Position numbers and translations under genes: made by a program. 64,000 bases of DNA from assembly GCF_013248995.1 (NCBI RefSeq), contig NZ_JABRPK010000001.1:248001-312000 (forward strand). Direction: 5' to 3'. Of this stretch, positions 1 through 19,161 are shown piece by piece; the first letter of the stretch is position 1, and every line of letters starts with the position of its first letter. The notes under the pieces are model-generated. The model was not told where the DNA came from. It did not search any database and saw only the letters and a program-made list of their open reading frames with translations. This DNA is from Frigoribacterium sp. VKM Ac-2836. GTDB taxonomy: Bacteria > Actinomycetota > Actinomycetes > Actinomycetales > Microbacteriaceae.

Positions 1-1
1 C

Positions 2-163
2 GTCGCGTCGCGCCGGGTCGACTCGGTGGGCCTCGTCGACGCGTTCTCGGCCGGGTTCATCGCGGCGTGGCCGACGTCCCGCAGCCTGACGGTCGCCGGA
101 CGCAGCGGTGCTCGTGCCGCTGCGCGGGCCGCGGGCGTGGTCGGAGGACGGCCCCCCGTCTGA
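2..163 (+). CDS. C-terminal end of a probable PfkB-family carbohydrate kinase (partial)
   Basis: The reading frame is open from the window edge to the TGA at 161-163 and encodes 53 residues. The segment DSVGLVDAFSAGF resembles the second PfkB signature (normally D-T-x-G-A-G-D-A-F), which carries the catalytic Asp of ribokinase-type sugar kinases. The Ala/Arg-rich helix after it also fits the family C-terminus. The usual G-A-G-D anion-hole motif reads G-L-V-D here, so the enzyme may be divergent. Most of the gene lies outside the window, so the substrate cannot be inferred. It converges on the hydrolase gene that ends at 187. Confidence 0.45.
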   Translation, partial: VASRRVDSVGLVDAFSAGFIAAWPTSRSLTVAGRSGARAAARAAGVVGGRPPV

Positions 164-186
164 CGCGGCCGGACCGGGTCGACGGG

Positions 187-1611
187 CTAGCGAGGAGTCT
201 CGGCGGTCACGTTCACGGTCTGCACCCGGGGCGGTCGCTCGGGGGTGAGCCTGATCTCGAACCGGACGACACCCCGTGCACCGCGTCGCCGCCACACCAG
301 GTGTGACGGGGCCGACGACTCGTCGGCCGGTGTCGCGTCGCCGGTGTCGTCCCAGCCGCCCACCGAGTCCACGACGGCAGCCCAGGAGGCGCGCCGCCGG
401 TCGAGCGGGAGGTCGAGCTCGACGTTCTCGCTGAACAACCCGTCGGGCACGGCCCCTCCGCGCACGACGGCCTCGACCGCCTCGCGGGCCACCGAGGTCG
501 CGGGCCACGGACGCACCGTGACCCGGGCCCCGGGACGGTCGGCCAGCATGCCGTCGAGTGCGAGCCCGATCGGTTCGGAGACCTTCGAGTAGGTCGCGTT
601 CTCGAACCCGATCGCGCCGAGGCCGGTCGCGGTCTGCCAGCGCATGTGGGCCGAGAACCCGGGGTAGCCGCCGCTGTGCGACACGACGGTGCCGTGGTCG
701 GGGTAGTGCTCGACGAACAGGCCGAACCCGTAGCCGCCGGGGTGTCCGGCCCGGGCGGAGACGAACCGCTGCACCTGCTGCATCTCGCGCCGGGAGGCAC
801 GCGAGAGGATGCCGTCGAGGTCGCCCCGGCCCTCGGGGTCGAACGCCGAGCCGAGCCAGCGGGCCCATCTCGTCAGGTCGGTCGCGGTGCTGAACAATCC
901 GCCGATGGGCGAGAACGCGCCCGGGCCCGAGAACGGCAGGGCATCACCCCCGTCGGAGGCACGGCGGTGGCCGATCGCGACGCCGCCGACGGCCGGCACG
1001 GTCGCCTCGAACCCCGTGGCCTCGAGACCGAGCGGCCCGAGGATCGTCGACTCGACGACCTCTCGGTACGGCCGCCCGGCGACGGCGGCGATCGCGCGGC
1101 CCACGAGGGCGAAGCCGAGGTTGGAGTAGGCGAACGTCGTGCCCGGCACGCTGTCGAAGCTCAACCCGGCCCGCAGCAGGGCGTCGAGTCCGTCGTCGGT
1201 CAGGGATTCTTGCCGGTCGCCCCACGGATCGTCGGTGGGGAAGCCGGCCGACATGGTCAGGAGCATGCGCAGGGTCGGCACGGGAGAATCGGTGGTGGGC
1301 AGGGTGACGTCGGCGAACGCCGGCACGAAGTCGGTGATCGGTGCGTCGAGCGACACGAGCCCGGCGTCGCGCTGGGCGAGCAGGGCCGTGGCGGTGAAGC
1401 TCTTCGTGCACGAGGCGATGCGATAGGCCGTGTCGACGCCGGGCGCGGTGCCCGGGGCGATCTCGCCGTACGAGCCGTCGTGGGTCATGCCCTCGTGGTC
1501 GAAGGTCGCCCAGACGGCGCTCGGCCCCCGCCGCTCGGGGCGTCGGGCGGCGAACACGGCGTCGATGCCCGTTGGTGCGTCGTGGTAGGAGGGGCGGATG
1601 GCCGTCGTCAC
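187..1611 (-). CDS. serine hydrolase, beta-lactamase / penicillin-binding protein fold
   Basis: A 474-residue protein of the class C beta-lactamase-like serine hydrolase superfamily (esterases, D-aminopeptidases, PBP-related enzymes). The nucleophile motif SxxK is SCTK (Ser67, Lys70). The YxN motif is YSN at 162-164, and a later HSGG segment matches the third active-site box. No signal peptide or membrane segment is evident, so a cytoplasmic role is more likely than resistance or wall synthesis. I chose the GTG at 1611 because GAGAGGAAC lies just upstream; the frame stays open further but with non-coding-looking sequence. It begins 25 bases after the photolyase stop and is probably its operon partner. 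The substrate cannot be predicted. Confidence 0.85.
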   Translation of the reverse strand: MTTAIRPSYHDAPTGIDAVFAARRPERRGPSAVWATFDHEGMTHDGSYGEIAPGTAPGVDTAYRIASCTKSFTATALLAQRDAGLVSLDAPITDFVPAFADVTLPTTDSPVPTLRMLLTMSAGFPTDDPWGDRQESLTDDGLDALLRAGLSFDSVPGTTFAYSNLGFALVGRAIAAVAGRPYREVVESTILGPLGLEATGFEATVPAVGGVAIGHRRASDGGDALPFSGPGAFSPIGGLFSTATDLTRWARWLGSAFDPEGRGDLDGILSRASRREMQQVQRFVSARAGHPGGYGFGLFVEHYPDHGTVVSHSGGYPGFSAHMRWQTATGLGAIGFENATYSKVSEPIGLALDGMLADRPGARVTVRPWPATSVAREAVEAVVRGGAVPDGLFSENVELDLPLDRRRASWAAVVDSVGGWDDTGDATPADESSAPSHLVWRRRGARGVVRFEIRLTPERPPRVQTVNVTAETPR

Positions 1612-1636
1612 GGGCTGTTCCTCTCGTGGTGCGGGG

Positions 1637-3010
1637 TCATTCGGTGCGCGTGCTGCGACGCATCGCCTCGTAGGCGTCGAGCGCGGCACGACGCGAGACC
1701 TTGAGATCGACCATGGGCTCGGGGTACGAGTCGTCGTCGACCTCGGGCACCCAGCGGCGCACGTAGTCGCGGTGCTTGTCGAACTTGTCGGCCTGCAACA
1801 CGGGGTTGAAGACCCGGAAGTACGGTGCCGCGTCAGCGCCCGAGCCGGCCGTCCACTGCCAGTTGGCGGGGTTGTTGGCCTCGTCGGCGTCGACGAGGGT
1901 GTCCCAGAACCACTGCTCGCCTACCCGCCAGTCGGCCAGCAGGTTCTTCACCAGGAAGCTGGCGGTGACCATGCGCACCCGGTTGTGCATGTACCCGGTC
2001 GTCCAGAGCTCGCGCATGCCGGCGTCGACCAACGGGATGCCGGTGGTGCCCTGCTGCCACGCCTCGAGTTCTCGCGGCTCGAGCTCGTGCCACGGGAACT
2101 CGTCGAACTCGGGTCGGTAGTTCTTCGTGGCGAGGTGCGGGTTCGCGAAGAGGACCGTGTGGTTGAACTCACGCCAGACGAGTTCGCGCAAGAAGCCCGA
2201 GGCCTGCTCGCGGGCGTCGGGCGCGAGGTCGCCACGCATGCGGTGCCACACCTGGAACGGGCTCACCTCTCCGAAGCGGAGGTGGGGGGAGAGGTGGCTG
2301 GTCGCTTCTTGGGCGGGCTCGTCGCGCAGGCCGTAGTCCGCCAGGTGGCCGGTGGCGAAGCGTTCGAGCGTGTCGAGGGCCGAGGCCTCGCCGGGAGTCC
2401 AGGAGTCACGGAGCCCGGCCGACCAGTCGGGCGCCGTGGGCAGCAGGGCCCATGAGTCGAGGTCGTCGCTGGCCGGTGCGGCAGCGGGCGCGTGCAGCTC
2501 GTCGGGGGCCGCCTCGGGGTGCCGGGGTTCGGGGCGGTCGAGGCACGCGCGCCAGAACGGCGTGAAGACCTTGAACGGTTGGCCCTGGCCCGTCTGGATC
2601 GTCCACGGCTCGAACATCAGGTTCGCCTGGAAGCTGCGCACGTCGAGCCCGCGTTCGCGGAGCGACGACTTGAGGTCGGCGTCCGCCTCGCGGGCGGCCA
2701 GGCCGTACCGGCGGTTCCAGAAGACCGCACCTGCACCGACCTCGTCGACGAGGCGGGGCAGTTCGCGGGCCTGGGGGCCTCGTCGCAACGTCAGCCGAGC
2801 ACCCACGGCTCGCAACGACTCGCCCAGGGCGGCGAGGCTGTGGTGCAGCCACCACCTGGAGGCCCCGCCGAGGGGGCGGATGCCGTCGGTCTCGTCGTCG
2901 AGCAGGAACACGACGACCACCGGCTCACCCCGGTCGACGGCGGCCACGAGAGCGGGGTTGTCGGCCAGACGCAGGTCGTCACGCAACCAGACGATCGACG
3001 GTGACGTCAT
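1637..3010 (-). CDS. phr: deoxyribodipyrimidine photolyase (class I CPD type)
   Basis: A 457-residue flavoprotein that uses blue light to split cyclobutane pyrimidine dimers. The N-terminal antenna domain begins with IVWLRDDLRLADNPAL. The C-terminal FAD-binding domain carries the family signature TGYMHNRVRMVTASFLVKNL, followed by NNPANWQWTAGSGADAAPYF with the conserved Trp and Asn residues near the flavin. Length and motifs fit bacterial class I CPD photolyases rather than cryptochromes, though (6-4) activity cannot be excluded by eye. Its ATG overlaps the stop of the upstream MarR gene (ATGA at 3007-3010), indicating translational coupling. MarR-photolyase-hydrolase therefore looks like a single transcription unit. 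Confidence 0.94.
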   Translation of the reverse strand: MTSPSIVWLRDDLRLADNPALVAAVDRGEPVVVVFLLDDETDGIRPLGGASRWWLHHSLAALGESLRAVGARLTLRRGPQARELPRLVDEVGAGAVFWNRRYGLAAREADADLKSSLRERGLDVRSFQANLMFEPWTIQTGQGQPFKVFTPFWRACLDRPEPRHPEAAPDELHAPAAAPASDDLDSWALLPTAPDWSAGLRDSWTPGEASALDTLERFATGHLADYGLRDEPAQEATSHLSPHLRFGEVSPFQVWHRMRGDLAPDAREQASGFLRELVWREFNHTVLFANPHLATKNYRPEFDEFPWHELEPRELEAWQQGTTGIPLVDAGMRELWTTGYMHNRVRMVTASFLVKNLLADWRVGEQWFWDTLVDADEANNPANWQWTAGSGADAAPYFRVFNPVLQADKFDKHRDYVRRWVPEVDDDSYPEPMVDLKVSRRAALDAYEAMRRSTRTE

Positions 3011-3459
3011 GCGTTCGCCCCGATCGGCGTGCCCAGGCGCAGCTTCGTGCAGAGCTCGGCCAGCGAGGCCAGCTCGTCGTCGTCGAGCGCACCGCCCACG
3101 CGACGACGGATCGCCTCGGCGTGGCTGACCGCCGTGCGCCGGTAGAGGTCGTAGCCCTCGGCGGTCATGGCCACGATGATGCCTCGCCCGTCGCCCGGGT
3201 CGGAGGCCTTCTCGACGATGCCCTTCGAGGCGAGTCGGTCGACGAGACGGCTGATGCTCGGCTGGGTGAGCAACAGGTGACGGGTCAGGTCACGGATGCG
3301 GGCCCGCCGCTCGGGCTGGTTCGAGAGGTTGAACAGCACGTCGTACTCGTTGAACGAGATCTCGTTGGTCGGGAAGCACTCGGTCAGTTCGCGCATGACG
3401 CTGACCTGGGCCCGGAACAGGGCTTCCCAGGCCCCCACGGCCATCGATGTCTCGCTCAT
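3007..3459 (-). CDS. MarR-family transcriptional regulator
   Basis: A 150-residue winged-helix repressor of the MarR family. The helix-turn-helix lies around residues 45-85 (RIRDLTRHLLLTQPSISRLV). The wing is marked by DPGDGRGIIVAMTAEG, the typical D-x-R-G box. I chose ATG 3459 because the GTGAGG about six bases upstream is a good ribosome site; the open frame further upstream is Arg/Pro-rich and unlikely to be coding. A TAGACT -10-like element sits 26 bases upstream at 3491-3486. It is the first gene of the coupled MarR-photolyase-hydrolase operon, so autoregulation and control of the photolyase are plausible but not shown. The ligand is unknown. Confidence 0.88.
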   Translation of the reverse strand: MSETSMAVGAWEALFRAQVSVMRELTECFPTNEISFNEYDVLFNLSNQPERRARIRDLTRHLLLTQPSISRLVDRLASKGIVEKASDPGDGRGIIVAMTAEGYDLYRRTAVSHAEAIRRRVGGALDDDELASLAELCTKLRLGTPIGANA

Positions 3460-3771
3460 GTCGCACCTCACGTTCGTCGAGGACGAGTCTACGAAAGGCC
3501 ACCGACCTCGGGCCGACACGGGGGCCGCCGACCGGCATGGGGCGCATCGACCGGGTACACGACGGAGGGCCGGTCGCCCGATGGCGACCGGCCCTCTTCC
3601 CTTGCACCAGGAGTGTCCTGCAATCACATTCCGCCTCGGCCGCCACAGCAAACGACGTCGGCGAGACACAATCTATAACGGATCGGTAACGGTGGTCCAG
3701 GTGTGCGCCTCATGAGTTCCTGGGAACTCGCACAGAGCGAGCCGAGACCGGTCCGACGTCCGACCCACCGG
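3460..3771. other. 312-base intergenic region between MarR operon and wHTH gene
   Basis: No coding region is convincing here. It holds a strong hairpin (listed separately), the MarR promoter element, an AT-richer stretch around 3668-3690, and a short dyad GAGTTCC-TG-GGAACTC at 3714-3729 lying 43 bases after the wHTH stop. The dyad could be part of that gene's 3' end or a protein-binding site. Confidence 0.6.
3565..3596. terminator. rho-independent-type terminator hairpin
   Basis: Perfect 14-base-pair stem (GAGGGCCGGTCGCC / GGCGACCGGCCCTC) with a 4-base CGAT loop. On the plus strand it is followed by TTCCCTT. The nearest upstream gene on either strand is the minus-strand wHTH gene, about 175 bases away, so it most likely ends that transcript before the MarR operon promoter. 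Confidence 0.75.
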
Positions 3772-4527
3772 TCAGAAGACGTCGGGGGAGGGCGTGGAGG
3801 CGTGGCGGATCGAGACGTCCGCGTGGCGGTCGAAGCGGTATCCGACGCCGCGCACCGTCCGCACGATGTCCTCGAAGGCGCCGAGCTTCGACCGCAGTCG
3901 GCGGACGTGCACGTCGATGGTGCGTTCGTTCGGCACCTCGTCCTCGCCGTCGGCCCAGAGGCTCGAGATCAACTCGGCTCGTTCGATGGTGCGGCCCTCG
4001 CGCAGGACGAGGTACTGCAGCAACTCGAACTCCTTGTAGGTCAGGGGGGCCACGTCGCCGTCCAGCAGCAGCCGCTTCCGCGAGATGTCGACCACGACGC
4101 CGCCGCGGGCCCCGGGTTCGTCCTCCTCGGTGACCTGGCGTCGCTTCGCGAGGGCCGCGGGGTCCTGCAGGGCCAGGCGGACCACCTCGACGTCGCGGCC
4201 ACCGGCCCCTTCGGGGGCGAGCGCCACGGCGGCGTGCGTCTCGGCGGACGGGGCGATGCGCCCGACCAGTTCCTTGATCTGGGACACCACGTCGCCCAAC
4301 GAGGTGCCGTCGGCGGCGGCCTTGAGCTCGTCCAGCCCGACGTAGAGGACGAACCCGCGGGTCTCGGTGCCTTCGGGCACGGCGCGGGGGCGAGGTGCCG
4401 AGGGGGAGGAGGGGGCCGGGGTGGCCGTGCGGGCGGGAGCGTTCTCACGAAGGGGCACCGGGGCCGCGGAACGGGCGGGTGAGACGGTGCGGGTGGCGGT
4501 GACGGGGCGGTCGAGGATGAGGGACAT
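3772..4527 (-). CDS. winged helix-turn-helix transcriptional regulator (OmpR/PhoB-type DNA-binding domain, no receiver)
   Basis: A 251-residue regulator. Residues from about 150 to 245 form an OmpR/PhoB-type winged helix: LTYKEFELLQYLVLREG starts the domain, ERTIDVHVRRLRSKLG is the recognition helix, and VRGVGYRF the final wing. The N-terminal half is not a response-regulator receiver: there is a Pro/Ala-rich stretch up to about residue 50, then a small alpha/beta segment starting RGFVLYVGLDELKAA with no phospho-acceptor pocket I can see. ATG 4527 is supported by AAGGAC upstream. A strong promoter and a Met/Cys-rich small ORF lie some 270-400 bases upstream, so its mRNA probably has a long leader. 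The target genes are unknown. Confidence 0.86.
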   Translation of the reverse strand: MSLILDRPVTATRTVSPARSAAPVPLRENAPARTATPAPSSPSAPRPRAVPEGTETRGFVLYVGLDELKAAADGTSLGDVVSQIKELVGRIAPSAETHAAVALAPEGAGGRDVEVVRLALQDPAALAKRRQVTEEDEPGARGGVVVDISRKRLLLDGDVAPLTYKEFELLQYLVLREGRTIERAELISSLWADGEDEVPNERTIDVHVRRLRSKLGAFEDIVRTVRGVGYRFDRHADVSIRHASTPSPDVF

Positions 4528-4793
4528 GACAGGCGGAGTCCTTGCGTGACGGCGGCGGCTCTCCGGGCCGGCGGGTCGCCGGGGTGCGGAAGGGCTGCTC
4601 GATGTGTGTCGGTGCTCGATCCCGCCGGCGATGGTGCCGTACGTCACGAGCAGTCGGTGCGATGCACCGTTCGGGATGCGCGTCGAGGGTCGCGACGAAG
4701 GGCATCCTGGAGTCGGTGGCTCAGCGACCGGGTGGGGCCGCGAGCTCAGCTGGCGGTGTCAGCAGCTTCGACTCGGCGAGGTGTGTGGCCGGA
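4528..4793 (-). other. long leader region of the wHTH gene
   Basis: There are 266 bases between the end of the upstream small ORF and the wHTH start codon. No convincing gene on either strand. On the minus strand it includes AGCTG...CAGCT near 4740-4770 as a weak stem and the ribosome site AAGGAC just before 4527. It would be transcribed from the promoter at 4900-4929, and so is a candidate for attenuation control. Confidence 0.45.
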
Positions 4794-4892
4794 TCAGGCA
4801 CACATTCGACACATGGCAACGTGCATCGGCATCATCATGCCGGTGCTCCCGAGGGCCTCACGAGAGGTCGGGGCGAGCACGCTGTTAGTCAT
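4794..4892 (-). CDS. leaderless small ORF with Met/Cys-rich tail, possible leader peptide
   Basis: A 32-codon frame, ATG at 4892 to TGA at 4796-4794, encoding a peptide starting MTNSVLAPTSREALG. Its last 14 residues are MMMPMHVAMCRMCA: six Met, two Cys in a CxxC arrangement, and one His. The ATG falls exactly seven bases after a CAAAAT -10 element that is preceded by a perfect TTGACA, so the message would be leaderless, like many genes in this window. The next gene downstream on the same strand is the wHTH regulator. A sulfur-amino-acid-rich tail is typical of leader peptides that sense charged tRNA or metal supply, but nothing here proves translation. A chance ORF remains possible. Confidence 0.5.
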   Translation of the reverse strand: MTNSVLAPTSREALGSTGMMMPMHVAMCRMCA

Positions 4893-4899
4893 GGGGTCG

Positions 4900-4929
4900 A
4901 TTTTGTGGCACCCCGCGACCCGATGTCAA
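4900..4929 (-). promoter_or_regulatory. sigma70-type promoter upstream of the small ORF
   Basis: Minus strand: TTGACA at 4929-4924, an 18-base spacer, then CAAAAT at 4905-4900. The -35 is a perfect consensus match, rare in this GC-rich window. The predicted start point falls at or next to the small-ORF ATG at 4892. Confidence 0.65.
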
Positions 4930-4973
4930 GTGGCGTTCGCGATCCGACGGCGTGAGTGGCCCGGAAACGCCGA

Positions 4974-5004
4974 ACCGCGCCTCCTGCGGTCGAGGAGGCG
5001 CGGT
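4974..5004. terminator. terminator hairpin built from an inverted pair of the dispersed repeat
   Basis: A perfect 12-base-pair stem, ACCGCGCCTCCT (4974-4985) against AGGAGGCGCGGT (4993-5004), with a 7-base loop. It lies 24 bases past the upp stop on the minus strand, so it is placed as the upp terminator. Both arms are copies of the AGGAGGCGCG element found throughout the window. Confidence 0.75.
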
Positions 5005-5028
5005 CCGGGTCGTCGGTGGGGGCTCGCG

Positions 5029-5661
5029 TCAGGCGAGTCCGTAGAGGCGGTCGCCGGCGTCGCCGAGCCCGGGGACGATGTAGCCCTGCTCGTTCAGCCT
5101 CTCGTCGACGGCGCCGAGGACGACGTGGACGTCGCGTCCCTCCATCGCCTTCTCGACCGCGGCGAGGCCTTCGGGTGCGGCGAGGATGCAGACGGCCGTG
5201 ACGTCGACGGCGCCGCGGTCGAGCAGGTAGTCGATGGCCGCGATGAGCGATCCGCCCGTGGCGAGCATCGGATCGAGCACGAAGCACTGCCGGTTCGAGA
5301 GGTCGTCGGGCAGGCGCTCGGCGTAGGTCGTCGGCTGCAGGGTCTCTTCGTCTCGCACCATGCCGAGGAAGCCCACCTCGGCGGTCGGGACGAGCTTCGT
5401 CATGCCTTCGAGCATGCCGAGGCCGGCACGAAGGATCGGGACGACGAGGGGCCGCGGCTGGCTGATCTCGAGGCCCGTGGTCGGACCGACCGGGGTCTCG
5501 ATGTCGACGGGGCTGGTGCGGACGTCGCGCGTGGCCTCGTAGGCCAGCAGCGTGACGAGCTCTTCGGTCAGTGCCCGGAAGGTGGGGGAGGGGGTGCTCT
5601 TGTCGCGGAGCACGGTCAACTTGTGGGTGATCAGGGGGTGGTCCGCTACGTGCACTCGCAT
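5029..5661 (-). CDS. upp: uracil phosphoribosyltransferase
   Basis: A 210-residue cytoplasmic enzyme that joins uracil and PRPP to make UMP in pyrimidine salvage. The PRPP-binding loop is [11 protein letters not shown] and the uracil-binding C-terminus is [15 protein letters not shown], both diagnostic of Upp. Length matches the family (about 208). The ATG at 5661 is set seven bases behind a TACCGT -10 element (5674-5669), indicating a leaderless transcript. It is divergent from tadA with only 60 bases between the starts, and is followed by the inverted-repeat terminator at 4974-5004. Confidence 0.97.
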
Positions 5662-5721
5662 AGGCTCAACGGTAGCGGAGTCGACCGGTTCCGCGAGCCG
5701 TCCCGACCCCGCCGAGGCCCT

Positions 5722-6186
5722 GTGATCGCCGTCCCGCCCGAGTTCGACGACTGGATGTCGCTCGCCCTCGCCGAGGCCGACGCCTGTCGGGTCTCGGCCG
5801 ACGTCCCGGTCGGAGCCGTGGTGGTCGACGCCGACGGCGTGGTGATCGCGACGGGCCGCAACGAACGCGAGCTGCGACAGGACCCGACCGCCCACGCCGA
5901 GGTGATCGCCCTTCGGGCCGCCGCCGAGCGCACCGGCGACTGGCACCTCACCGGGACGACCCTCGTGGTGACCCTCGAACCCTGCCCCATGTGCGCCGGA
6001 GCCCTGCTCGCCGCGCGGGTCCCGCGGCTCGTCTACGGCGCCTGGGACGACAAGGCAGGAGGCGCGGGCAGCGTCTACGACATCGTCCGCGACCGCAGGC
6101 TCCCGCACCGCGCCGAGGTCTACGCCGGCGTGCGCGAGGCCGAGTGCCGCGACCAGCTCGACGCCTTCTTCGCCGAGCGGCGCTGA
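5722..6186 (+). CDS. tadA: tRNA adenosine(34) deaminase
   Basis: A 154-residue zinc-dependent deaminase that converts adenosine to inosine at the wobble position of tRNA-Arg(ACG). The zinc and catalytic motifs are HAEVIAL (His ligand plus catalytic Glu) and PCPMCAGAL (two Cys ligands). The GTG at 5722 gives a normal family N-terminus ([15 protein letters not shown]); an in-frame ATG at 5755 would shorten the first helix. It is divergent from upp, a common neighbour in Actinobacteria. A copy of the dispersed repeat lies after the stop. Confidence 0.93.
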
Positions 6187-6210
6187 GGCGGGCGACGCGA
6201 GGTGGCCGGC

Positions 6211-6223
6211 CCGCGCCTCCTCG
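6211..6223. repeat. dispersed GAGGAGGCGCG element, single intergenic copy
   Basis: CCGCGCCTCCTCG lies in the 40-base gap between the convergent tadA and cation-transporter genes. It has no partner arm here. It is one of 19 exact copies of the 10-mer core AGGAGGCGCG counted by eye on both strands. Confidence 0.6.
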
Positions 6224-6226
6224 GGG

Positions 6227-7189
6227 TCAGTCGGCGGCGCGGATGACGATCGCGTCGGTCGGCGGATCGACCTGACCGGGCTTCACCCACACGTCGGGCT
6301 CGACGTAGATGACGCGCGCGATCGGCACGGCCTCGCGGATGCGTGACTCGACCGCGTTGATGGCGCTCGCGACGTCGGCCAGCACCGTGCGGCCGGGCAT
6401 CGCGACCTTGACTCCGACGAGCAGCTCGTCGGGGCCGAGGTACAGGGTCTTCATGTGGATGATCGACTCGACCTCGGGACCACCCGTGATCGCCTCGCGG
6501 ATCGTCTTGACGTCCTCGGCCGAGGCTCCCTCGCCGACGAGCAGGCTCTTGGTCTCGATGCCGAGGATCACGGCCACCGCGACGAGCAACAGGCCGATGG
6601 CGATGGTGCCGATCGCGTCGTAGACGCCGTCGCCGGTGATCCAGGTGAGGACGACGCCGATCATGGCGAACGACAGACCGAGCAGCGCCGCGGCGTCCTC
6701 GAGCAGCACCACCGGCAGCTCGGGGGCCTTCGCCCGCCGGATGAACGACGCCCAGCTCTGCTGCCCCTTGCTCGGACGGGACTCGCGGATCGCCGTCCGC
6801 AGCGAGAAGCCCTCGAGTGCGAGCGAGATCGCCAGCACGAGCACCGGCAGCCAGGGCACCTCGAGCGGGTGCGGCTCGCGCAGCTTCTCGACGCCCTCGT
6901 AGAGCGAGAAGACACCGCCGACGCTGAACAGGATGATCGAGACGACGAAGGCGTAGACGTAGCGCTCGCGCCCGTGACCGAAGGGGTGCTCGGCGTCGGC
7001 CGCCTTCTTCGCCTTGCGGCCGCCGAGCAGCAGCAGCAGCTGATTGCCCGAGTCGGCCAGCGAGTGGACGCCCTCGGCGAGCATCGACGACGAGCCCGAG
7101 AAGGCCCAAGCGATGAACTTCGTCACCGCGATGCCCAGATTCGCGCTGAGTGCGGCGATGATCGCCTTGTTGCCGCCGTGACTGCTCAT
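6227..7189 (-). CDS. cation diffusion facilitator (CDF) family transporter
   Basis: A 320-residue inner-membrane protein predicted to export divalent metal ions in exchange for protons. The N-terminal half has the CDF transmembrane domain with the metal-site motif HSLAD in helix 2 ([12 protein letters not shown]) and a second site near EDAAALLGL. The C-terminal part (from about residue 220) is the cytoplasmic alpha/beta dimerisation domain, which looks complete. Loops between helices contain a basic [13 protein letters not shown] region and the usual FGHGRERY motif. The metal (Zn, Co, Mn or Fe) cannot be told from sequence. A GAGGGG ribosome site precedes the ATG. Confidence 0.9.
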
Positions 7190-7235
7190 CGGTTCGATCC
7201 CCTCGTGTGGTCCTTGTCGATCCTAGGATGGCGGG

Positions 7236-8087
7236 ATGGCCACCACCCTCCCCACCACAGCGATTCTCGGAGCCGGCTCGATGGGCGGTGCGATCCTGCA
7301 GGGCCTGCTGCGCCCCGAGGTCTCCGTCGAGGGCGGCGTGCGGGTGACGAACCGCACCGAGGTCAAGGCCCGGGCGTTACGGCACGGCGCCGTGACCTCG
7401 CTCGCGACCGAGACCGACCCGAGCGCCAACTCGTCGGCCGTCGTCGGGGCGCGGTTGGTGCTGATCGGCGTCAAGCCGCACCTGGTCGTCGACCTGCTGC
7501 GCGAGATCGGTCCGGCGCTCGACGCGGGCGCCGTCGTGGTCAGCCTCGCCGCGGGAGTGACGACCGCCACGATGGAGGCGGCCCTGCCCGGGTCGGTGTC
7601 GGTGCTGCGTTCGATGCCGAACACGCCGTCTCACGTCGGTCTCGGCGTCACCGGGCTGAGCGCCGGGTCGCGGTCGACCGACGCCGACCTCGACCTCGCC
7701 CGATCGCTCTTCGCGGTGGTCGGTGACGTCGTGGTCGTCCCCGAGTCGCAGATCGACGCGCTCAGCACGATCTCTGGCTCGGGTCCCGCCTACGTCTTCT
7801 ACCTGATCGAACGACTGCAGGAGGCGGCGGTCGCCTTGGGCTTCACCCCCGCGCAGGCCGCCACGATGGTCCAGGGCACGTTCCGCGGGGCGAGCGAGCT
7901 GCTCGCCACGAGTGACGTCCTGCCGGCGCACACCGCGCCCGCCGAACTCCGTCGCCGTGTCACGAGTCCCGGCGGCACGACCGAGCGCGCCGTCGCCGAG
8001 CTCGCCGACGGCGGCCTGCTCGAGCTGTTCGAGCGGGCCACCGGGGCCGCTCTCGCGCGCAACCGCGAGATCGCCGAAGGTCGCTGA
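7236..8087 (+). CDS. proC: pyrroline-5-carboxylate reductase
   Basis: A 283-residue enzyme for the last step of proline synthesis, reducing pyrroline-5-carboxylate with NAD(P)H. The N-terminal Rossmann motif is AILGAGSMGGAIL. The C-terminal P5CR signature around ALSTISGSGPAYVFY and the later TSPGGTTERAV complete the family pattern. TAGGAT at 7224-7229 lies six bases before the ATG, so the transcript is probably leaderless. The neighbourhood of proC, small HTH gene and bS22 is the same as in mycobacteria (Rv0500, Rv0500A, Rv0500B), but here a potassium system is inserted between them. Confidence 0.97.
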   Translation: MATTLPTTAILGAGSMGGAILQGLLRPEVSVEGGVRVTNRTEVKARALRHGAVTSLATETDPSANSSAVVGARLVLIGVKPHLVVDLLREIGPALDAGAVVVSLAAGVTTATMEAALPGSVSVLRSMPNTPSHVGLGVTGLSAGSRSTDADLDLARSLFAVVGDVVVVPESQIDALSTISGSGPAYVFYLIERLQEAAVALGFTPAQAATMVQGTFRGASELLATSDVLPAHTAPAELRRRVTSPGGTTERAVAELADGGLLELFERATGAALARNREIAEGR

Positions 8088-8093
8088 CCGGGG

Positions 8094-8765
8094 TCAGCCC
8101 TCGAGGGCGGCGAAACGCTCGATGGCGCGGCTGTCGCCCGACACGATGATCAGGTCGTGGTTGCTGATGACCGTCTCGGGGGTGGCCTCGAGGAACGCGC
8201 CGCCGGGGCTCTTCACACCGACGATCGTGATGCCGTACTTCGTGCGGATGTTCGACGCGGCCAGCGAGGCGCCGCGGACGGGCTTGGGCGGGTACATCTT
8301 GACGATGGCGAACGCGTCGTCGAACTCGATGTAGTCGAGCATCCGGCCCGAGACGAGGTGCGCGACGCGCTCGCCGGCCTCACGCTCGGGGTAGATCACG
8401 TGGTTCGCGCCGATGCGGGCGAGGATCTTGCCGTGCGACTGGCTGATCGCCTTCGCCCAGATCTGCGGCACCTTCAGGTCGACCAGGTTGGCCGTGATCA
8501 GCACGCTGGCCTCGATGGACGAGCCGACGGCGACGACCGCGATCGAGAAGTCCTGCGCTCCGATCTGCTTGAGCGCGTCGATGCTGCGGGCGTCCGCCTG
8601 CACCGCGTGCGTCACGCGGTCGGCCCATTTCTGCACGAGGCCGGCGTCGGTGTCGACGGCGAGGACGTCGCGGTCCTGCCGTTCGAGTTGCCCGGCGGTG
8701 GCGGCGCCGAAGCGGCCGAGGCCGATGACGAGCACCGGGGCGTCGTGTTTGATCTTGTCAACCAA
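8094..8765 (-). CDS. ktrA: Ktr/Trk-type potassium uptake regulatory subunit (RCK domains)
   Basis: A 223-residue cytoplasmic gating subunit. The N-terminal RCK_N Rossmann domain carries VIGLGRFGAATAGQL for nucleotide binding, and the C-terminal RCK_C part (from about residue 145) completes the protein. Such subunits form a ring on the membrane channel and respond to ATP/ADP and often c-di-AMP. It starts with TTG at 8765 and overlaps the end of the channel gene by eight bases, so the pair is co-translated. One RCK_N plus one RCK_C fits KtrA/C rather than the double-length TrkA. Confidence 0.9.
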   Translation of the reverse strand: MVDKIKHDAPVLVIGLGRFGAATAGQLERQDRDVLAVDTDAGLVQKWADRVTHAVQADARSIDALKQIGAQDFSIAVVAVGSSIEASVLITANLVDLKVPQIWAKAISQSHGKILARIGANHVIYPEREAGERVAHLVSGRMLDYIEFDDAFAIVKMYPPKPVRGASLAASNIRTKYGITIVGVKSPGGAFLEATPETVISNHDLIIVSGDSRAIERFAALEG

Positions 8766-10215
8766 CGATCGGTCGCTCCTCGGCTCTCGTGAACAGCTGG
8801 CGTCGTTGGCTGGCGGCCAGGGCGACGGAGAGTGTCACTGTACCAACGCGGCCCATCCACATCGTGACCGCGAGGATGTACTTCGCCGAGTCGGGGAGGC
8901 GTTCGGTGAGCCCCGTGCTGAGGCCCGACGTGGCGAACGCCGAGATGGACTCGAACAGCACGTGGTCGAGGGGCTCTTTCGTGATGTGCATGATCAGGAT
9001 GCTCGACACCGCGACGATCGTGGCACCCCAGAGGACGACGCTGACGGCCAGGCGCAGGACGTCGCTGGGGATGCGGCGGCCGAAGGCCTCCATCGACCGC
9101 TGACCGCGCGCCTCGGCGAAGGCCGCCAGGAACAGCACCGCGAGCGTCGTCACCTTGATGCCTCCGGCGGTCGACGCCGAGCCGCCACCGATGAACATGA
9201 GCATGTCGGTGACGAGCAGCGACGACCCGTTCAGGTCGGAGATCTGGATGGTCGAGAAACCGCCCGACCTGGTCATCATGCTCAGGAAGAGCGACTGGAA
9301 CACCGTGGGGCCGGCCTCGATGCCGCCGAACGTCTTCGGGTTGTCGAACTCGAGGACGATGTAGAGCACCATGCCGAACACGATGAGGATCGCCGTCGTC
9401 AGCAGGGTCAGCTTGACGTGCACCGACCAGCGTCGGGGGTTGCGGGGGTTCCGGGCCAGGGCGTAGATCACCGGGAACCCGATGCTGCCGAGGAACACCC
9501 CGATCATGATCAGGCTGAGGAACCAGTAGTCGTTCTCGAACGCGGCGAGCCCCTCGGCGTTGGGCGTGAACCCGGTGTTCGTGAACGCCATGGCCGAGTA
9601 GTAGAAGCTGTCGAGCATTGCGTCGCCGACGGGGATGCCGTCGATCAGCATGCGGGGGATCATCAGCAGGGCGATGGCCAGCTGGATGACGAACGAGCTG
9701 AGAGCCACCGTCGTCAACAGCCCGCCGATCTCGCCCAGTCGCACGGCCTGACCCTCGGGTACGGGGCCCGCGTGCACCCGCAGGGGGTTCTGGTCGCCGG
9801 CCGCCATCAGCCGGGCGCGCAGGCCGAGCTTGCGCGAGACGACGAGGCCCATGATCGAGGCCAGCGTGAGCACGCCGATCGCGCCGATCTGCACGCCGAC
9901 GAAGATGACGACATGGCCGAACAGGGACCAATGGGTGGCCATGTCGACGGTGGCGAGGCCGGTGACGCAGATGACCGAGACGGCCGTGAAGACGGAGTCG
10001 GCGAGCGGGGTGATCGTCCGGTCCGCCGACGAGATCGGCAGCGAGAACAACAGGGTGAAGACCACGATCAGACCCGTGAAGATCAAGATCGCGAGGCGCG
10101 CGGGCGACTTGCGACCGATGTCGTCGAGCGCGTCGCTGAGTCTGCGCCAGGGCGAGCGGCCGGGGCCCGAGGGGCGGCGTCGACCGGCGACGGGGGCGCG
10201 AGTCACGTCGGCCAT
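8758..10215 (-). CDS. ktrB: TrkH/KtrB-family potassium channel subunit
   Basis: A 485-residue polytopic membrane protein forming the potassium-conducting pore. It has four pore-loop repeats with selectivity-filter-like glycines, for example AVSVICVTGLATVD, AMAFTNTGFTPN, MTRSGGFST and AFATSGLSTGL. The N-terminal 35 residues are basic and Pro/Arg-rich, probably cytoplasmic. The ATG at 10215 is the first Met giving a standard N-terminus; the longer open frame lies over the divergent ArsR gene and is not real. It is followed by ktrA with an 8-base overlap. Only 27 bases separate it from the divergent regulator, which may share its promoter region. Confidence 0.92.
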   Translation of the reverse strand: MADVTRAPVAGRRRPSGPGRSPWRRLSDALDDIGRKSPARLAILIFTGLIVVFTLLFSLPISSADRTITPLADSVFTAVSVICVTGLATVDMATHWSLFGHVVIFVGVQIGAIGVLTLASIMGLVVSRKLGLRARLMAAGDQNPLRVHAGPVPEGQAVRLGEIGGLLTTVALSSFVIQLAIALLMIPRMLIDGIPVGDAMLDSFYYSAMAFTNTGFTPNAEGLAAFENDYWFLSLIMIGVFLGSIGFPVIYALARNPRNPRRWSVHVKLTLLTTAILIVFGMVLYIVLEFDNPKTFGGIEAGPTVFQSLFLSMMTRSGGFSTIQISDLNGSSLLVTDMLMFIGGGSASTAGGIKVTTLAVLFLAAFAEARGQRSMEAFGRRIPSDVLRLAVSVVLWGATIVAVSSILIMHITKEPLDHVLFESISAFATSGLSTGLTERLPDSAKYILAVTMWMGRVGTVTLSVALAASQRRQLFTRAEERPIVG

Positions 10216-10242
10216 GCTATCCCGGGTCACTACGCTGGTCGC

Positions 10243-10779
10243 ATGCCGGACATCTTCGCCGTGATCGCCGACGCCACCCGCCGAGACCTCTTGAAGGTGC
10301 TGCTCGATGCCTCGCTGTCGACCGACTCCGTGAACGCCGACATCAGCGTGGGCGAGATGGTCACGTCGCTCGGCGTCAGTCAACCGACGGTCTCGAAGCA
10401 CCTGCGCGTCCTGCGCGAGGCCGGTCTCGTGCGCGTCCGCGAAGAGGGGCAGCACCGCTACTACTCGCTCGAGGCGGGGCCGCTCGAGGTCGTCGAGGAC
10501 TGGTTGATTCCTTTCGTCAGCGCCGACTCGTTGACCTCCGAGGTCTTGGCCAGCACGCCGTTCGCCGCCTGGGCCGGGGCCAGCGTTCCCGCCCCGTTCC
10601 GACGTGCGGCCGAGAACCTGCCCGACGCCGAGGACGTCGGCAGCACGCTGGGTCGCTACGCGGCCGGGGCCCAGTACCGCGCCTCCTCGGCCCTGCACGA
10701 CGCGCAGAGCGCTCTGGGAGCCCTGGACGAACGGGTCATCGATCCCGTGCGCAAGCGCCTGGGGCGCACCGGGCAGTAG
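10243..10779 (+). CDS. ArsR-type winged-helix regulator
   Basis: A 178-residue protein with an N-terminal ArsR/SmtB-like helix-turn-helix (residues 1-80). Recognition-helix sequence LGVSQPTVSKHLRVLREAGL and wing REEGQHRYYSLE are both diagnostic. The metal-binding ELCVC-type motif is absent and there is no Cys, so it is not a classical metal sensor. The C-terminal 90 residues are Ala-rich, helical and unassigned. TACGCT at 10231-10236 lies six bases before the ATG, fitting a leaderless message. It is divergent from ktrB by 27 bases, so control of potassium uptake is conceivable but unproven. A copy of the dispersed repeat is inside the gene (10678-10687). Confidence 0.85.
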   Translation: MPDIFAVIADATRRDLLKVLLDASLSTDSVNADISVGEMVTSLGVSQPTVSKHLRVLREAGLVRVREEGQHRYYSLEAGPLEVVEDWLIPFVSADSLTSEVLASTPFAAWAGASVPAPFRRAAENLPDAEDVGSTLGRYAAGAQYRASSALHDAQSALGALDERVIDPVRKRLGRTGQ

Positions 10780-10893
10780 CCTCCGACACGCCTTTACACC
10801 GAGTCACACGCGCCCCTAGAGTTGCCTTCACGCACACGGGAAACACTCGTCTGCCCCACAGCCCCGGCACGGGGCCCGATTCGAGGCAGGGTC

Positions 10894-11088
10894 ATGTCGC
10901 AGGATCTCTCCGATGTGCGGTTCCTCACGGTCGCCGAGGTGGCCGACATGATGCGCGTCTCGAAGATGACGGTCTACCGCATGGTCCACTCGGGCGAGCT
11001 GCCGGCGATCCGCTTCGGACGGTCGTTCCGGGTGCCCGAATCGGCCGTGGCCGCCGTGCTGCGCACGGGCATCGCCGACGTCGGCTAG
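10894..11088 (+). CDS. BldC/excisionase-like helix-turn-helix DNA-binding protein
   Basis: A 64-residue MerR-like single-domain protein. The helix-turn-helix is FLTVAEVADMMRVSKMTVYR, followed by the winged segment LPAIRFGRSFRVPESAV. Length and layout match the small actinobacterial HTH proteins related to BldC and to M. tuberculosis Rv0500A. A GAGGCAGGG ribosome site precedes the ATG at 10894. The position just before the bS22 gene is a conserved arrangement in Actinobacteria (recalled knowledge). The regulated genes are not evident from this sequence. Confidence 0.88.
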   Translation: MSQDLSDVRFLTVAEVADMMRVSKMTVYRMVHSGELPAIRFGRSFRVPESAVAAVLRTGIADVG

Positions 11089-11194
11089 GCCACTTCGACT
11101 TTCTCGGGCCGTCCTAGTAGACTGACCCGAGGTATTTTTCCGCGGTTCTGTTTCGGACCCGGTCGGTCCAATCCAGAAATCAGTGAGGTCCTCT

Positions 11195-11293
11195 ATGGGT
11201 TCTGTCATCAAGAAGCGTCGCAAGCGCATGGCGAAGAAGAAGCACCGCAAGCTGCTTCGCAAGACTCGTCACCAGCGTCGCAACAAGAAGTAG
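11195..11293 (+). CDS. small basic 30S ribosomal protein bS22 (AURKAIP1/COX24 domain)
   Basis: A 32-residue, extremely basic peptide: it begins MGSVIKKRRKRMAKKKHR and ends in RRNKK, with 20 Lys/Arg residues. This nearly matches the mycobacterial ribosomal protein bS22 (Rv0500B type), which sits near the decoding centre. It is too short for normal ORF cut-offs and easily missed. GTGAGGTCC just upstream supplies the ribosome site. A GTAGACTGACC segment around 11117-11127 may be the promoter. A strong terminator follows at 11304-11342, so it can be expressed as a single-gene unit. Confidence 0.93.
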   Translation: MGSVIKKRRKRMAKKKHRKLLRKTRHQRRNKK

Positions 11294-11303
11294 TCGCTCC
11301 ACA

Positions 11304-11342
11304 CGAAGGCCCCCGTCGACCACCGGTCGCCGGGGGCCTTCG
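11304..11342 (+). terminator. rho-independent-type terminator after bS22
   Basis: Perfect 12-base-pair stem CGAAGGCCCCCG / CGGGGGCCTTCG around a 15-base loop, starting 11 bases past the bS22 stop. There is no long T-run after it. Confidence 0.8.
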
Positions 11343-11383
11343 TCATGCCCGGCCGTCGCCCCGCCCTCGCTACCCTTGATGGC

Positions 11384-11650
11384 ATGGCCGAACCACGAAT
11401 CACCCTCCTGACCAAGCCGGGTTGCCACCTGTGCGACGACGCCCGTTCCGCACTGCACGAGGTGCTGGCCGAGGCCGAGTTCGCCGGTGCCGGCGTGGCC
11501 GTCGACGAGAAGAACATCCTCGACGACGCCGAGCTCACCGCCGAGTACGCCGAGGAGATCCCCGTCGTGCTGATCGACGGTCGCGTGCACACCGTCTGGC
11601 GCGTCGAGCCCGACCGGCTGCGGACGGCGCTCCGCGCAGCCGTCCGCTAG
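11384..11650 (+). CDS. glutaredoxin-like thioredoxin-fold protein
   Basis: An 88-residue small thioredoxin-fold protein with the redox motif CHLC (in TKPGCHLCDDA) near the N-terminus. The later EIPVVLIDGR segment contains the cis-proline of the fold. It belongs to the glutaredoxin-like/DUF836 group found beside proC and bS22 in Actinobacteria (compare Rv0508; recalled). Probable role: cytoplasmic thiol-disulfide exchange; the partner is unknown. TACCCT at 11371-11376, seven bases before the ATG, indicates a leaderless transcript. Confidence 0.85.
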   Translation: MAEPRITLLTKPGCHLCDDARSALHEVLAEAEFAGAGVAVDEKNILDDAELTAEYAEEIPVVLIDGRVHTVWRVEPDRLRTALRAAVR

Positions 11651-11673
11651 CTCGGCGAGCACGCACGGCGACG

Positions 11674-11709
11674 AGAAGCCCCGACGAGATCGCTCTCGTC
11701 GGGGCTTCT
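11674..11709. terminator. bidirectional terminator between glutaredoxin-like gene and aspS
   Basis: A perfect 15-base-pair stem, AGAAGCCCCGACGAG / CTCGTCGGGGCTTCT, with a 6-base loop. It lies 23 bases after the plus-strand gene and 18 bases after the minus-strand aspS stop, so it can serve both. Confidence 0.85.
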
Positions 11710-11727
11710 GTGGTCGGTGTGCAGAAC

Positions 11728-13062
11728 CTACGGCTGGAGGCGCGTGGGGCCGCGGAAGAGGAACGTCACCTCGCGCAGGTTGGCCTGGTGCAGCATGAGC
11801 ATCAGCACGCGGGCGAGGCCCATGCCGAAGCCGCCGTGCGACGGGGCGCCGTAGCGGAAGAAATCGAGGTAGCCGCCGAGTTCCTCGGGCTTGAGTCCCT
11901 TCTCGCGGATCTGCTGCTCGAGCACGTCGATGCGGTGCTCGCGCTGAGCTCCGGTCGAGATCTCGGTGCCGTTGAAGATCAGGTCGTAGCTCTTCGTCAC
12001 CTGCGGGTCGTCGGCATGACGCATGTGATAGAAGGGGCGGATCGAGATGTCGTAGTCCGTGAGGAAGACGAACTCGTGGCCGAACTCTTCGCGCACGTAC
12101 TCCGAGATGCGACGCTCGCCCTCGGGGTCCATGTCGGCGTCGGTCCGGGGCACCTCGTAGCCGCGCTCGGCCACGATGCGCTTGGCCTCGGCCAGTGGGA
12201 TGCGGGGGAACGGCGTCGTCGGGACGGTCACCTCGACGTCGAAGAGGGCCTGGATCTCGTCGCCGTGTTTCTCCTTCACGGCCGAGAAGGCGGCCACGAG
12301 GAGTTCTTCGTGCATGCGCATGACGTCCTCGTGGCTGTCGACGTAGCTGATCTCGGCGTCGACGCTCGTGAACTCGGTCGCGTGACGCGAGGTGAACGAG
12401 GGGTCGGCGCGGAACACCGGTGCGATCTCGAAGATCTTGCCGAAGCCCGCCGTCTGCGCCATCTGCTTGAAGAACTGGGGGCTCTGTGCCAGGTAGGCGG
12501 CGCCCTCGAAGTAGTCGACCTTGAACAGCTCGGCGTTCGACTCGCTCGCCGTGGCCATGAGCTTCGGCGTGTGGATCTCGACGAAGTCGCGCTCGATCCA
12601 CCAGGTGCGGAGGGCGTGTTCGAACGTCGTCTGCACGCGGAAGATCAGGGAGTTCCGGGGGACCCGCAGGTCGAGGAAGCGGTAGTCCAGGCGCTTGTCG
12701 ATGCCGCTGTCGGCGGCGATGGGGGTCTCGGGGTCGGCCAGCGAGTCGATGACGAGCGTGTCGACCTTGACCTCGATGCCCCCGAGCTTGACGCGCTCGT
12801 CGTGCTTGAGCTCACCCGTGACGGTGACGAAGCTGCCCTGCGAGAGCGACGAGATGGCGTCGGCCACGTCGTCCGTCTCGCCTGCCGCGGCGAGCACGTC
12901 GGCCGCGGTGCGGGGACGAACCAGTTGCAGGGCGCCGGTCTCGTCACGGAGGACGACGAACTGCACCTTCTTCTGATCACGAACCGTCTCGACCCAGCCG
13001 GTCACGGTCACGGGTCCGTCGGGCAGCGCGGACAGGTCTTTGATGAGGGTGCGTTCGATCAC
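11728..13062 (-). CDS. aspS: aspartyl-tRNA synthetase, archaeal/eukaryotic type (probably non-discriminating)
   Basis: A 444-residue class II synthetase. The N-terminal OB-fold anticodon domain (PVTVTGWVETVRDQKKVQFV) is followed directly by the catalytic core with motif 2 around FEIAPVFRADPSFTSRH and motif 3 GFGMGLARVLMLML. The GAD insertion of about 120 residues found in bacterial AspRS (about 590 residues) is absent, so this is the archaeal type. The Trp that gives tRNA-Asp specificity in Thermococcus AspRS (GWVW) is Glu here (GWVE), which suggests charging of tRNA-Asn too, needing GatCAB (inference). TAAACT at 13076-13071 lies eight bases before the chosen GTG at 13062, the leaderless pattern; a GTG at 13083 is an alternative. 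Confidence 0.93.
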   Translation of the reverse strand: MIERTLIKDLSALPDGPVTVTGWVETVRDQKKVQFVVLRDETGALQLVRPRTAADVLAAAGETDDVADAISSLSQGSFVTVTGELKHDERVKLGGIEVKVDTLVIDSLADPETPIAADSGIDKRLDYRFLDLRVPRNSLIFRVQTTFEHALRTWWIERDFVEIHTPKLMATASESNAELFKVDYFEGAAYLAQSPQFFKQMAQTAGFGKIFEIAPVFRADPSFTSRHATEFTSVDAEISYVDSHEDVMRMHEELLVAAFSAVKEKHGDEIQALFDVEVTVPTTPFPRIPLAEAKRIVAERGYEVPRTDADMDPEGERRISEYVREEFGHEFVFLTDYDISIRPFYHMRHADDPQVTKSYDLIFNGTEISTGAQREHRIDVLEQQIREKGLKPEELGGYLDFFRYGAPSHGGFGMGLARVLMLMLHQANLREVTFLFRGPTRLQP

Positions 13063-13182
13063 GAGGCCCGAGTTTACAGTCACCGCCTCCTCGCACCTGT
13101 CGGGGCACCCGTCCGGTCGCCGGCGAGCTTGGGGCTTTCCGTGTGGGAGGTGTGCAGGTGGGCCCGACCTAGACTCGTAGGC

Positions 13183-13830
13183 ATGCCCGCCCAGCAGATC
13201 CACCTCGTCCGGCACGGTGAGGTGCACAACCCCGAGCACGTGCTCTACGGCCGCCTCGACGGGTTCGGCCTCAGCGACCTCGGCCACCGGATGGCGGCCG
13301 CGTCGGCCGAGGCCTTCCGTGAGCAGGGCGTGCCCGTGCGTGCCCTGTTCGCCTCGCCCCTCCAGCGCACGCGCGAGAGCGCGGCCCCGTGGTCGTCGGC
13401 CTTCGGGCTCGAGACGCAGGTCGACGAACGTCTCGTCGAGCCGACCAACAAGTACCAGGGCCGCCGCAGCGATTTCAGCATCACCAAGCAGCTGAAGGTG
13501 CCGGCCGAATGGCCGTGGATCGTCAACCCGCTCAAGCCCAGCTGGGGCGAGGCCTACGTCAGCATCGCCGCCCGGATGCTGTCCGCCATCGACGAGGCCT
13601 GGTCGAGCGTCGACGACGGCGACGTCGTGCTCGTCAGCCATCAGTTGCCCATCTGGATGGTCCACCGCAGCGTCACGGGCGCACGCCTCTTCCACGATCC
13701 CCGCCGCCGCCGCTGCACTCTCTCGAGCATCACCACGCTCGAACGCCGCGAAGGGGGCTTCGTCGAGGTGGGCTACCAGGAACCCGCTGCACACTTGAAC
13801 GCGTCCGCCGTCGACTTGGGAGCAGTGTGA
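13183..13830 (+). CDS. histidine phosphatase (phosphoglycerate mutase-like) family protein
   Basis: A 215-residue protein with the RHG nucleophile motif at the N-terminus (IHLVRHGEVHNPEH) and the second conserved His in VVLVSHQLPIWMVH, giving the catalytic pair of the histidine phosphatase superfamily. The substrate is unknown; members range from phosphoglycerate mutases to broad phosphatases. It is the first gene of a tightly packed operon with tlpA (GTGA overlap), ccdA, resB and ccsB, a linkage common in Actinobacteria. TAGACT at 13170-13175 lies seven bases before the ATG, so the operon message is probably leaderless. Confidence 0.9.
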   Translation: MPAQQIHLVRHGEVHNPEHVLYGRLDGFGLSDLGHRMAAASAEAFREQGVPVRALFASPLQRTRESAAPWSSAFGLETQVDERLVEPTNKYQGRRSDFSITKQLKVPAEWPWIVNPLKPSWGEAYVSIAARMLSAIDEAWSSVDDGDVVLVSHQLPIWMVHRSVTGARLFHDPRRRRCTLSSITTLERREGGFVEVGYQEPAAHLNASAVDLGAV

Positions 13831-18053: not shown

Positions 18054-18073
18054 GCCCCCGAGCCTCTGAATCC

Positions 18074-18093
18074 CCGAGGGCCGGGTCCCTCGG
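18074..18093. terminator. weak hairpin between convergent ccsB and menC
   Basis: CCGAGGG / CCCTCGG with a 6-base loop in the 49-base gap between the two stops. Only seven pairs and no T-run; a plausible but weak bidirectional terminator. Confidence 0.45.
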
Positions 18094-18102
18094 CCCCGGG
18101 CG

Positions 18103-19119: not shown

Positions 19120-19161
19120 CCGCTCAGTGTCGCACCGGCGACCCCGGTAAGGTCGTGCGTC

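Follow-up and report, generated by a model that had tools for sequence, protein, structure and literature searches.

A leaderless Met/Cys-codon small ORF ahead of an orphan winged-helix regulator in Microbacteriaceae, a candidate attenuating leader peptide

On the minus strand of Frigoribacterium sp. VKM Ac-2836, a small open reading frame (sORF) of 32 codons with a Met/Cys-rich tail and a promoter of its own is found between upp and the gene of an orphan winged-helix regulator, which raises the question of whether it encodes a small protein in its own right or a leader peptide that controls the gene behind it. All coordinates refer to the window, the whole stretch of 64,000 nt that was analysed, and all features lie on its minus strand. 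The sORF (4794..4892) opens with an ATG at 4892, preceded by a -35 hexamer TTGACA (4924..4929) and, after an 18-nt spacer, a -10 hexamer CAAAAT (4900..4905) placed 7 nt 5' of the ATG, a geometry that points to a leaderless start. The aim of this promoter at the sORF ATG had been claimed in an earlier note and is confirmed by the sequence and by a promoter scan of window 1-20000, which returned three sites against 0.4 expected in shuffles, with the sORF promoter as the best (10/12). Translation of 4892-4794 gives MTNSVLAPTSREALGSTGMMMPMHVAMCRMCA, ending MMMPMHVAMCRMCA, and thus bears out the earlier count for the last 14 residues: six Met, two Cys (in CRMC) and a single His. Neither Pfam nor NCBIfam has a match for the peptide, and a search of window 3600-5100 against Rfam, with hits allowed up to E 1, was empty.

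The regulator (3772..4527; 251 aa) starts at 4527, 266 nt after the sORF stop, and was rightly described in the earlier note as an OmpR-type protein without a receiver: PF00486 (Trans_reg_C winged helix), at residues 160-232, is its only match above the Pfam cut-off, and no receiver domain is matched in Pfam. By fold, its winged helix is closest to the DNA-binding domain of GlnR (47-48% identity, best three chains), and its nearest named relatives are those of Frigoribacterium spp. (89-94%). The AlphaFold model is poor overall (mean pLDDT 64), with a poorly modelled N-terminus and a small middle domain; PADLOC has no match for the regulator, and among 31 aligned relatives conservation runs on through the last residues (HADV.IR...PSPD) almost to the C-terminus. 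A Shine-Dalgarno-like AAGGA lies at 4539..4543, a motif shared by 38 of 42 chosen leaders where 2.2 would be expected to have it. The upstream neighbour, upp (5661-5029), is a UPRTase gene by Pfam and NCBIfam. A GC-rich inverted repeat, GCGCCTCC...GGAGGCGC, was seen by eye after upp at about 4983-5003, and a like repeat, GGAGGCGCGG...CCGCGCCTCC, at about 250-288 of locus L293, between the upstream gene and metQ; the two are perhaps a recurrent terminator without a U-run.

With a threshold of E 1e-4, a profile built from 34 aligned sORF peptides has a single match in each listed genome and finds 173 of 249 genomes of the family, taken to be Microbacteriaceae from the regulator's nearest relatives; 65 of its 85 genera are represented. 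At every locus whose flanks were read, the sORF is followed by the same orphan winged-helix regulator. Approached from the regulator side by tblastn, 63 of 65 loci, which include second copies of some genomes and in which the script sought Met- or Cys-rich tails, have an sORF with such a tail upstream; the two exceptions (L043 and L056) offer just 43 and 31 nt of upstream sequence. The ORF and tail that the earlier note proposed to seek before the same regulator in relatives are therefore conserved. The 192 loci yielded 166 distinct copies, a count made after exclusion of L065, L088-L095, L102-L104, L108-L110 and L112, while the tail pattern was unmatched in 14 loci (L043, L056, L105, L111, L170, L172, L181, L190, L192, L196, L211, L213, L214 and L222). 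A -35 hexamer with at least 5/6 matches to TTGACA lies 35-38 nt 5' of the ATG in 159 of the 166 copies, at 36 or 37 nt in 147 of those, as counted by a script that favoured starts having such a hexamer. The sORF, its promoter and its Met/Cys tail are real, far beyond chance.

The limits of the family were traced in several ways. Six of the 76 family genomes that the profile missed at E 1e-4 were inspected: sORF-like ORFs are present in G020, G027, G028, G031 and G033, and none in G025. An order-wide profile search of 297 genomes gave a best match outside the family of E 0.008, and none was taken as real. Even so, two genomes from a different family within this order (L102 and L103) have sORFs ending in ..AADMRCCRMHA and ..AANMRCCRMHA upstream of the orthologous regulator, which is 46-48% identical. 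No such sORF was found in L104, a more distant regulator relative (40-46%). The combined pattern of TTGAC, leaderless start and tail occurs in 15 of 345 class genomes, all Microbacteriaceae, and skips the window copy, whose tail has one Cys codon fewer. The overlapping ORF MSNVCLIR... finds no support, as frame +2 carries stops in 66 of 110 copies and frame +1 in 110 of 110.

The tail proves to be fixed at the nucleotide level. Its core in the window is ATG-TGT-CGA-ATG-TGT (4800..4814). Arg is encoded by CGA in every one of the 166 distinct copies and in 10 of 10 pattern-dropped copies that were read, hence in 176 of 176, against a background of 26 CGA among 264 Arg codons in ten window genes. 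A Cys stands immediately 5' of CGA in 165 of the 166 copies, L106 being the one without; the Cys codons vary in the third base (TGT or TGC). Cys and Arg-CGA are the steadiest tail positions, and the two or three Cys codons of most copies are interspersed with Met and Arg codons and form no pure run. The residue following Met(-4) is Cys, His, Ser, Pro, Tyr or Arg across copies; in the ten pattern-dropped copies it is Ser in seven and Pro, Tyr and Cys in one each, and Met(-4) itself is Lys in one of them, L181. Outside the 176, CGA is kept in L105, L102 and L103, CGC stands in L110 and Lys in L111. Several diverged leaders retain their Met/Cys content, as in L105 (..VDMCACRMCCCC) and L109/L110 (..MMPCSMCMCMCMCR), such tails including ..MCACRMCCCC and ..MCMCMCMCR; Cys codons are lost in L106 and L111. 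In L109/L110, from a reduced genome, the leader tail reads as a repeat of ATGTGY (MCMCMCMCR), which resembles a microsatellite-like expansion of the Met/Cys codons.

A partner for this tail is found close to the regulator. In the window, an anti-tail element CCGACACACATCGAGCAG (4595..4612), recognised by complementarity and by the global fold of the leader, contains CGACACA (4611-4605), which a complement search identified as a perfect 7-nt complement of the TGTGTCG of the tail (4813-4807); in the predicted global fold these two segments pair, the expected number of base pairs that link tail and element being about 7.5. The complement, swap and fold tests across the family drew on the 154 copies, out of 166, that had an identifiable regulator start; thinning reduced these to 129 mutually dissimilar leaders. 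Of the 129, 56 carry a stretch of 7 nt or more, within the 95 nt that precede the regulator, that is perfectly complementary to the 18-nt core of the tail, against shuffled means of 9.2 (maximum 16, 200 shuffles) or 9.5 (maximum 19, 300 shuffles); since related genera are not independent, and since the 95-nt region and the 18-nt core were picked after part of the same data had been viewed, these counts are strong and are not to be read as probabilities. The remaining 73 leaders have no perfect 7-nt complement. The shuffles preserved dinucleotide blocks and not exact dinucleotide content, except in the whole-leader RNAduplex test.

Thinning, the sense, reversed and distal controls, and the metL-like loci described below serve as guards against a post hoc choice. 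Among the 129 leaders, sense queries gave 2 matches, reversed queries 0 and unreversed complements 8; the distal leader holds 6 complements against 5.7 expected, with no excess, and sORF codons 3-8 used as the query found 4 against 6.2. Thinning by peptide identity left 26 of 58 leaders with a complement (4.6 expected), 14 of 32 (2.7) and 8 of 17 (1.4), and exclusion of the last 18 nt left 44 complements against 9.2 expected (maximum 18). When tails were swapped, the own tail paired better with its proximal leader (mean dE -0.49, se 0.13), and the sign was opposite in the distal leader (+0.28, se 0.14). Over the whole leader, neither RNAduplex energy against shuffles (mean z -0.12, 66 loci) nor the best ungapped helix (mean z 0.27, 66 loci) showed an overall signal; the complementarity emerged once the leader region and the part of the sORF were resolved.

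The position of the anti-tail differs among loci. In 14 of the 56 complement-bearing loci it ends no more than 20 nt from the AUG, on the spacer between Shine-Dalgarno sequence and AUG. Reverse complements of the tail stand near the regulator start in L220 (TCGACAGCACA), L024 (TCGACAGCAC), and L067 and L069 (GCAACACAT), and ATTCGACA is placed directly between AAGG and CC-ATG in L046, L129, L134, L171, L174, L180 and L201. In L102/L103, of one genus, the tail TCGAATGCAC is matched by GCATTCGA in the leader, a pair for which the chance level was not computed. The window anti-tail lies about 60 nt 5' of the Shine-Dalgarno sequence and not on it. Complements to the Met run of the sORF, at the position 43 nt 5' of the stop, occur in 6 of 37 leaders, where 0.5 would be expected; CATCATC, complementary to the AUGAUG of this run, was also observed by eye between Shine-Dalgarno sequence and AUG in a few related lineages (L067, L068 and L070-L072).

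Partition-function folds agree with the sequence comparison: the tail is expected to form 7.2 pairs with the proximal leader, a value that drops to 4.3 once the latter is shuffled (paired difference, real minus shuffled, 2.88, se 0.35), and at least five such pairs are expected in 89 of 129 loci against 250 of 645 shuffles. Two control segments of the sORF in the same folds gave one slightly raised value (2.32 against 1.71) and one lowered (0.64 against 1.34). As a separate observation, a GCCG[AG]GT-like motif stands soon 3' of the sORF stop in many leaders (window 4528-4793 and homologues) and often opens a GC-rich hairpin by eye; GCCGAG, counted anywhere in the leader, is present in 18 of the 42 chosen leaders, with 4.0 expected. 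A conserved post-stop hairpin seemed likely by eye and was set aside, the alignment being too gappy (29% mean column identity).

Taken as a whole, the sORF is probably a cis-acting leader peptide of Met and Cys codons that attenuates the regulator through pairing of its tail with the anti-tail. The ribosome would start at the 5' end of the mRNA and reach the Met/Cys tail with its fixed CGA. A tail left free is expected to base-pair with the anti-tail in the last 95 nt before the regulator, which in some genera sits right between Shine-Dalgarno sequence and AUG, where pairing should block translation of the regulator. A shortage of Cys- or Met-tRNA would stall the ribosome on the tail and prevent pairing; the tail being kept unpaired, the regulator would most likely be translated, and would thus be made under sulfur amino-acid shortage. 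The direction is suggested by the position of the helix in those genera: since pairing between Shine-Dalgarno sequence and AUG should block translation, stalling for Cys or Met would turn the regulator on. The earlier note had offered two options, a leader peptide sensing Met/Cys supply or a metal-binding protein, and its first half is supported by the family-wide cis link to one regulator, the leaderless geometry, the Met/Cys codons and the tail complementarity.

The earlier note had further stated that a Met-rich form of such leaders was not known, which does not hold: according to the available text of PMC8079986, the methionine importer metNIQ of Streptomyces lividans is preceded by metL, a leaderless leader of Met and Cys codons. 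A metL peptide search of 345 class genomes matched 31; a single genus (g191), presumed to be Streptomyces, accounts for 29, and the two matches outside it (52% identity) were taken for chance. Among 30 metL-like loci (L223-L252), 24 were readable, with L225, L236 and L249-L252 missed by the tail filters. TGY-CGA-ATG is present in the tail of all 24, mostly as TGY-ATG-TGY-CGA-ATG; ATG-TGY-CGA-ATG occurs in nearly all, the first Met codon being CTG or ACG in three. In 24 of 24, G[CT]ACTCGACA lies 144-224 nt 3' of the tail, ahead of metN, and the metL-like tail TGTCGA-AT-GTGCGC is able to form a helix with GCGCAC-TCGACA. In the three loci where the downstream ORF was read, its best NCBIfam match is MetN at 379-381 bits, below the curated cut-off of 499.7, and its GTG lies 14-17 nt past the end of the complement. 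The tail string ATGTGYCGAATGYRY has matches in 24 of 296 class genomes, at 25 places: six (L269-L271, L273, L290 and L291) fall in different reading contexts and were put down to chance, one belongs to the window itself and 18 are in the metL genus. Rfam has no match at the gathering threshold in three metL-like loci, and no Met/Cys leader was found in the 440 nt examined ahead of the own genome's metQNI. A CTCGC/GCGAG hairpin was also observed after the stop of metL-like leaders. It is conceivable, as a tentative extension, that TGY-CGA-ATG, its Met/Cys neighbours and the anti-tail form a portable actinobacterial RNA module for Met/Cys sensing, which would serve metNIQ in Streptomyces and make the regulator a stalling-gated master switch of sulfur starvation across Microbacteriaceae.

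Among the other explanations, the one that survives best keeps the same leader and pairing and places the output in transcription, the helix gating Rho or polymerase pausing within a leader of about 100-300 nt; it is considered rather unlikely. A scan found no terminator-like site in the window leader (4793-4528), and Rho has been proposed for mycobacterial cys leaders in the text available from PMC1262725. Folding also shows no exposure of the Shine-Dalgarno sequence. With a ribosome placed on the tail, its accessibility is unchanged (mean 0.000, se 0.009, 129 loci), as is the stretch from Shine-Dalgarno sequence to AUG (-0.010, se 0.011); in that stretch changes above 0.1 are upward in 17 and downward in 21 of the 129 loci, a ribosome in mid-ORF gives +0.025 (se 0.009), and in the window accessibility falls from 0.44 to 0.35 with the ribosome on the tail. 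As no opening is seen, the folding predicts neither sequestration nor its direction, and together with the distance of the Frigoribacterium anti-tail, about 60 nt from the Shine-Dalgarno sequence, it makes a relay structure or a transcriptional (Rho) output possible. Translation is nevertheless indicated by the complements on the spacer within 20 nt of the AUG in 14 of 56 loci and by those near the metN GTG in three metL loci.

The peptide itself might instead be an arrest peptide (S..EA.G.AGMMMP....MCCRMC) whose nascent chain responds to a ligand, an antibiotic, a metal or the redox state. Residues outside the tail are indeed conserved among 110 copies of 33 aa (E12 in 104, G18 in 100, M20 in 109 and M21 in 107), and the conservation of E12 and G18 goes beyond the need of a pure codon counter and counts against the leader-attenuator reading. 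So do the frequent replacement of the last Cys, the Lys at Met(-4) in L181 and the Cys codons lost from L106 and L111. Arrest is nonetheless judged improbable: some reduced genomes and the sister family keep the Met/Cys codons and lose most else, the match of metL-like leaders to the Microbacteriaceae profile is confined to the tail (17 columns, hhalign 90%, E 1.5e-6 in a single comparison), and the invariance of CGA is unexplained by the peptide.

The second half of the earlier proposal, a copper- or zinc-binding small protein or a metal-sensing peptide, is very unlikely. A Met-rich stretch and CxxC or CCxxC are present in most of the 34 aligned copies, as metal binding would suggest, but the last Cys is replaced by His, Ser, Pro or Tyr in some lineages, which breaks the CxxC; with CGA fixed at the nucleotide level and the RNA complementarity, this half is left without support. 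The His of the tail occurs in Frigoribacterium copies and lies outside the conserved core. A chance ORF beside a promoter, for which its small size and nothing more speaks, is refuted by conservation over 65 genera and by mean entropies inside the ORF of 0.73 bits (first codon position), 0.69 bits (second) and 0.81 bits (third) against 1.73 and 1.79 bits in the 60-nt flanks on either side (the same 110 copies), and its probability is negligible.

The leader-attenuator reading thus offers a candidate Cys/Met sensor for a whole bacterial family that would act on a transcription regulator instead of a biosynthetic gene, so that one stalled ribosome could switch a regulon. It puts a role on offer for the orphan regulator and ties Streptomyces metL to pairing with metN, and the fixed CGA (176 of 176 copies) provides a nucleotide signature for seeking more such leaders. 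The available part of the open-licence PMC literature showed nothing on this leader or on tail/anti-tail pairing in metL.

Several known systems resemble parts of this arrangement. Canestrari, in 2020, reportedly described leaderless polycysteine sORFs of mycobacteria as attenuators. The mycobacterial polycysteine sORFs are leaderless, carry Cys codons towards the 3' end and act in cis on the next gene, and the Microbacteriaceae sORF, putatively leaderless and with Cys codons dispersed in its tail, resembles them in layout; they are poly-Cys, however, whereas the Microbacteriaceae tail reads Met-Cys-Cys-Arg-Met-Cys, and their targets are genes of Cys metabolism, whereas the presumed target here is the orphan regulator. 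Leaderless Cys-codon sORF attenuators of mycobacteria are reported in the accessible text of PMC9031893 and PMC13236596, and candidate leaders of this type in that of PMC4633059. The LEU element ahead of leuA in Actinobacteria, in which a codon run pairs with the Shine-Dalgarno box, is described in the accessible part of PMC1262725, whose authors detected no conserved RNA structure upstream of methionine operons. The LEU element has Leu codons and a conserved pseudoknot where the Microbacteriaceae leader has Met/Cys codons, and the Microbacteriaceae anti-tail, unlike the LEU element, is often tens of nt 5' of the Shine-Dalgarno sequence. A classical transcription attenuator has a Rho-independent terminator with a U-run, in contrast to the window leader. 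Leaderless Cys-codon leaders and pairing of a codon run with the Shine-Dalgarno sequence are thus already known. The available excerpts of PMC8079986 call metL termination unclear and mention no pairing with metN; they print two Arg in metL (CMCRRMC), whereas the genomic metL-like copies have one. The N-terminal halves of the metL-like and Microbacteriaceae peptides differ, the -35 region of the metL-like copies printed is unlike TTGACA, and metL precedes an importer, whereas the Microbacteriaceae sORF would act on a regulator. Both have a Met/Cys tail with tail codons in common, metL being leaderless according to the same excerpts, and the window sORF shares the metL-type traits as the set is defined here, namely TGY-CGA-ATG after Met/Cys codons together with an anti-tail.
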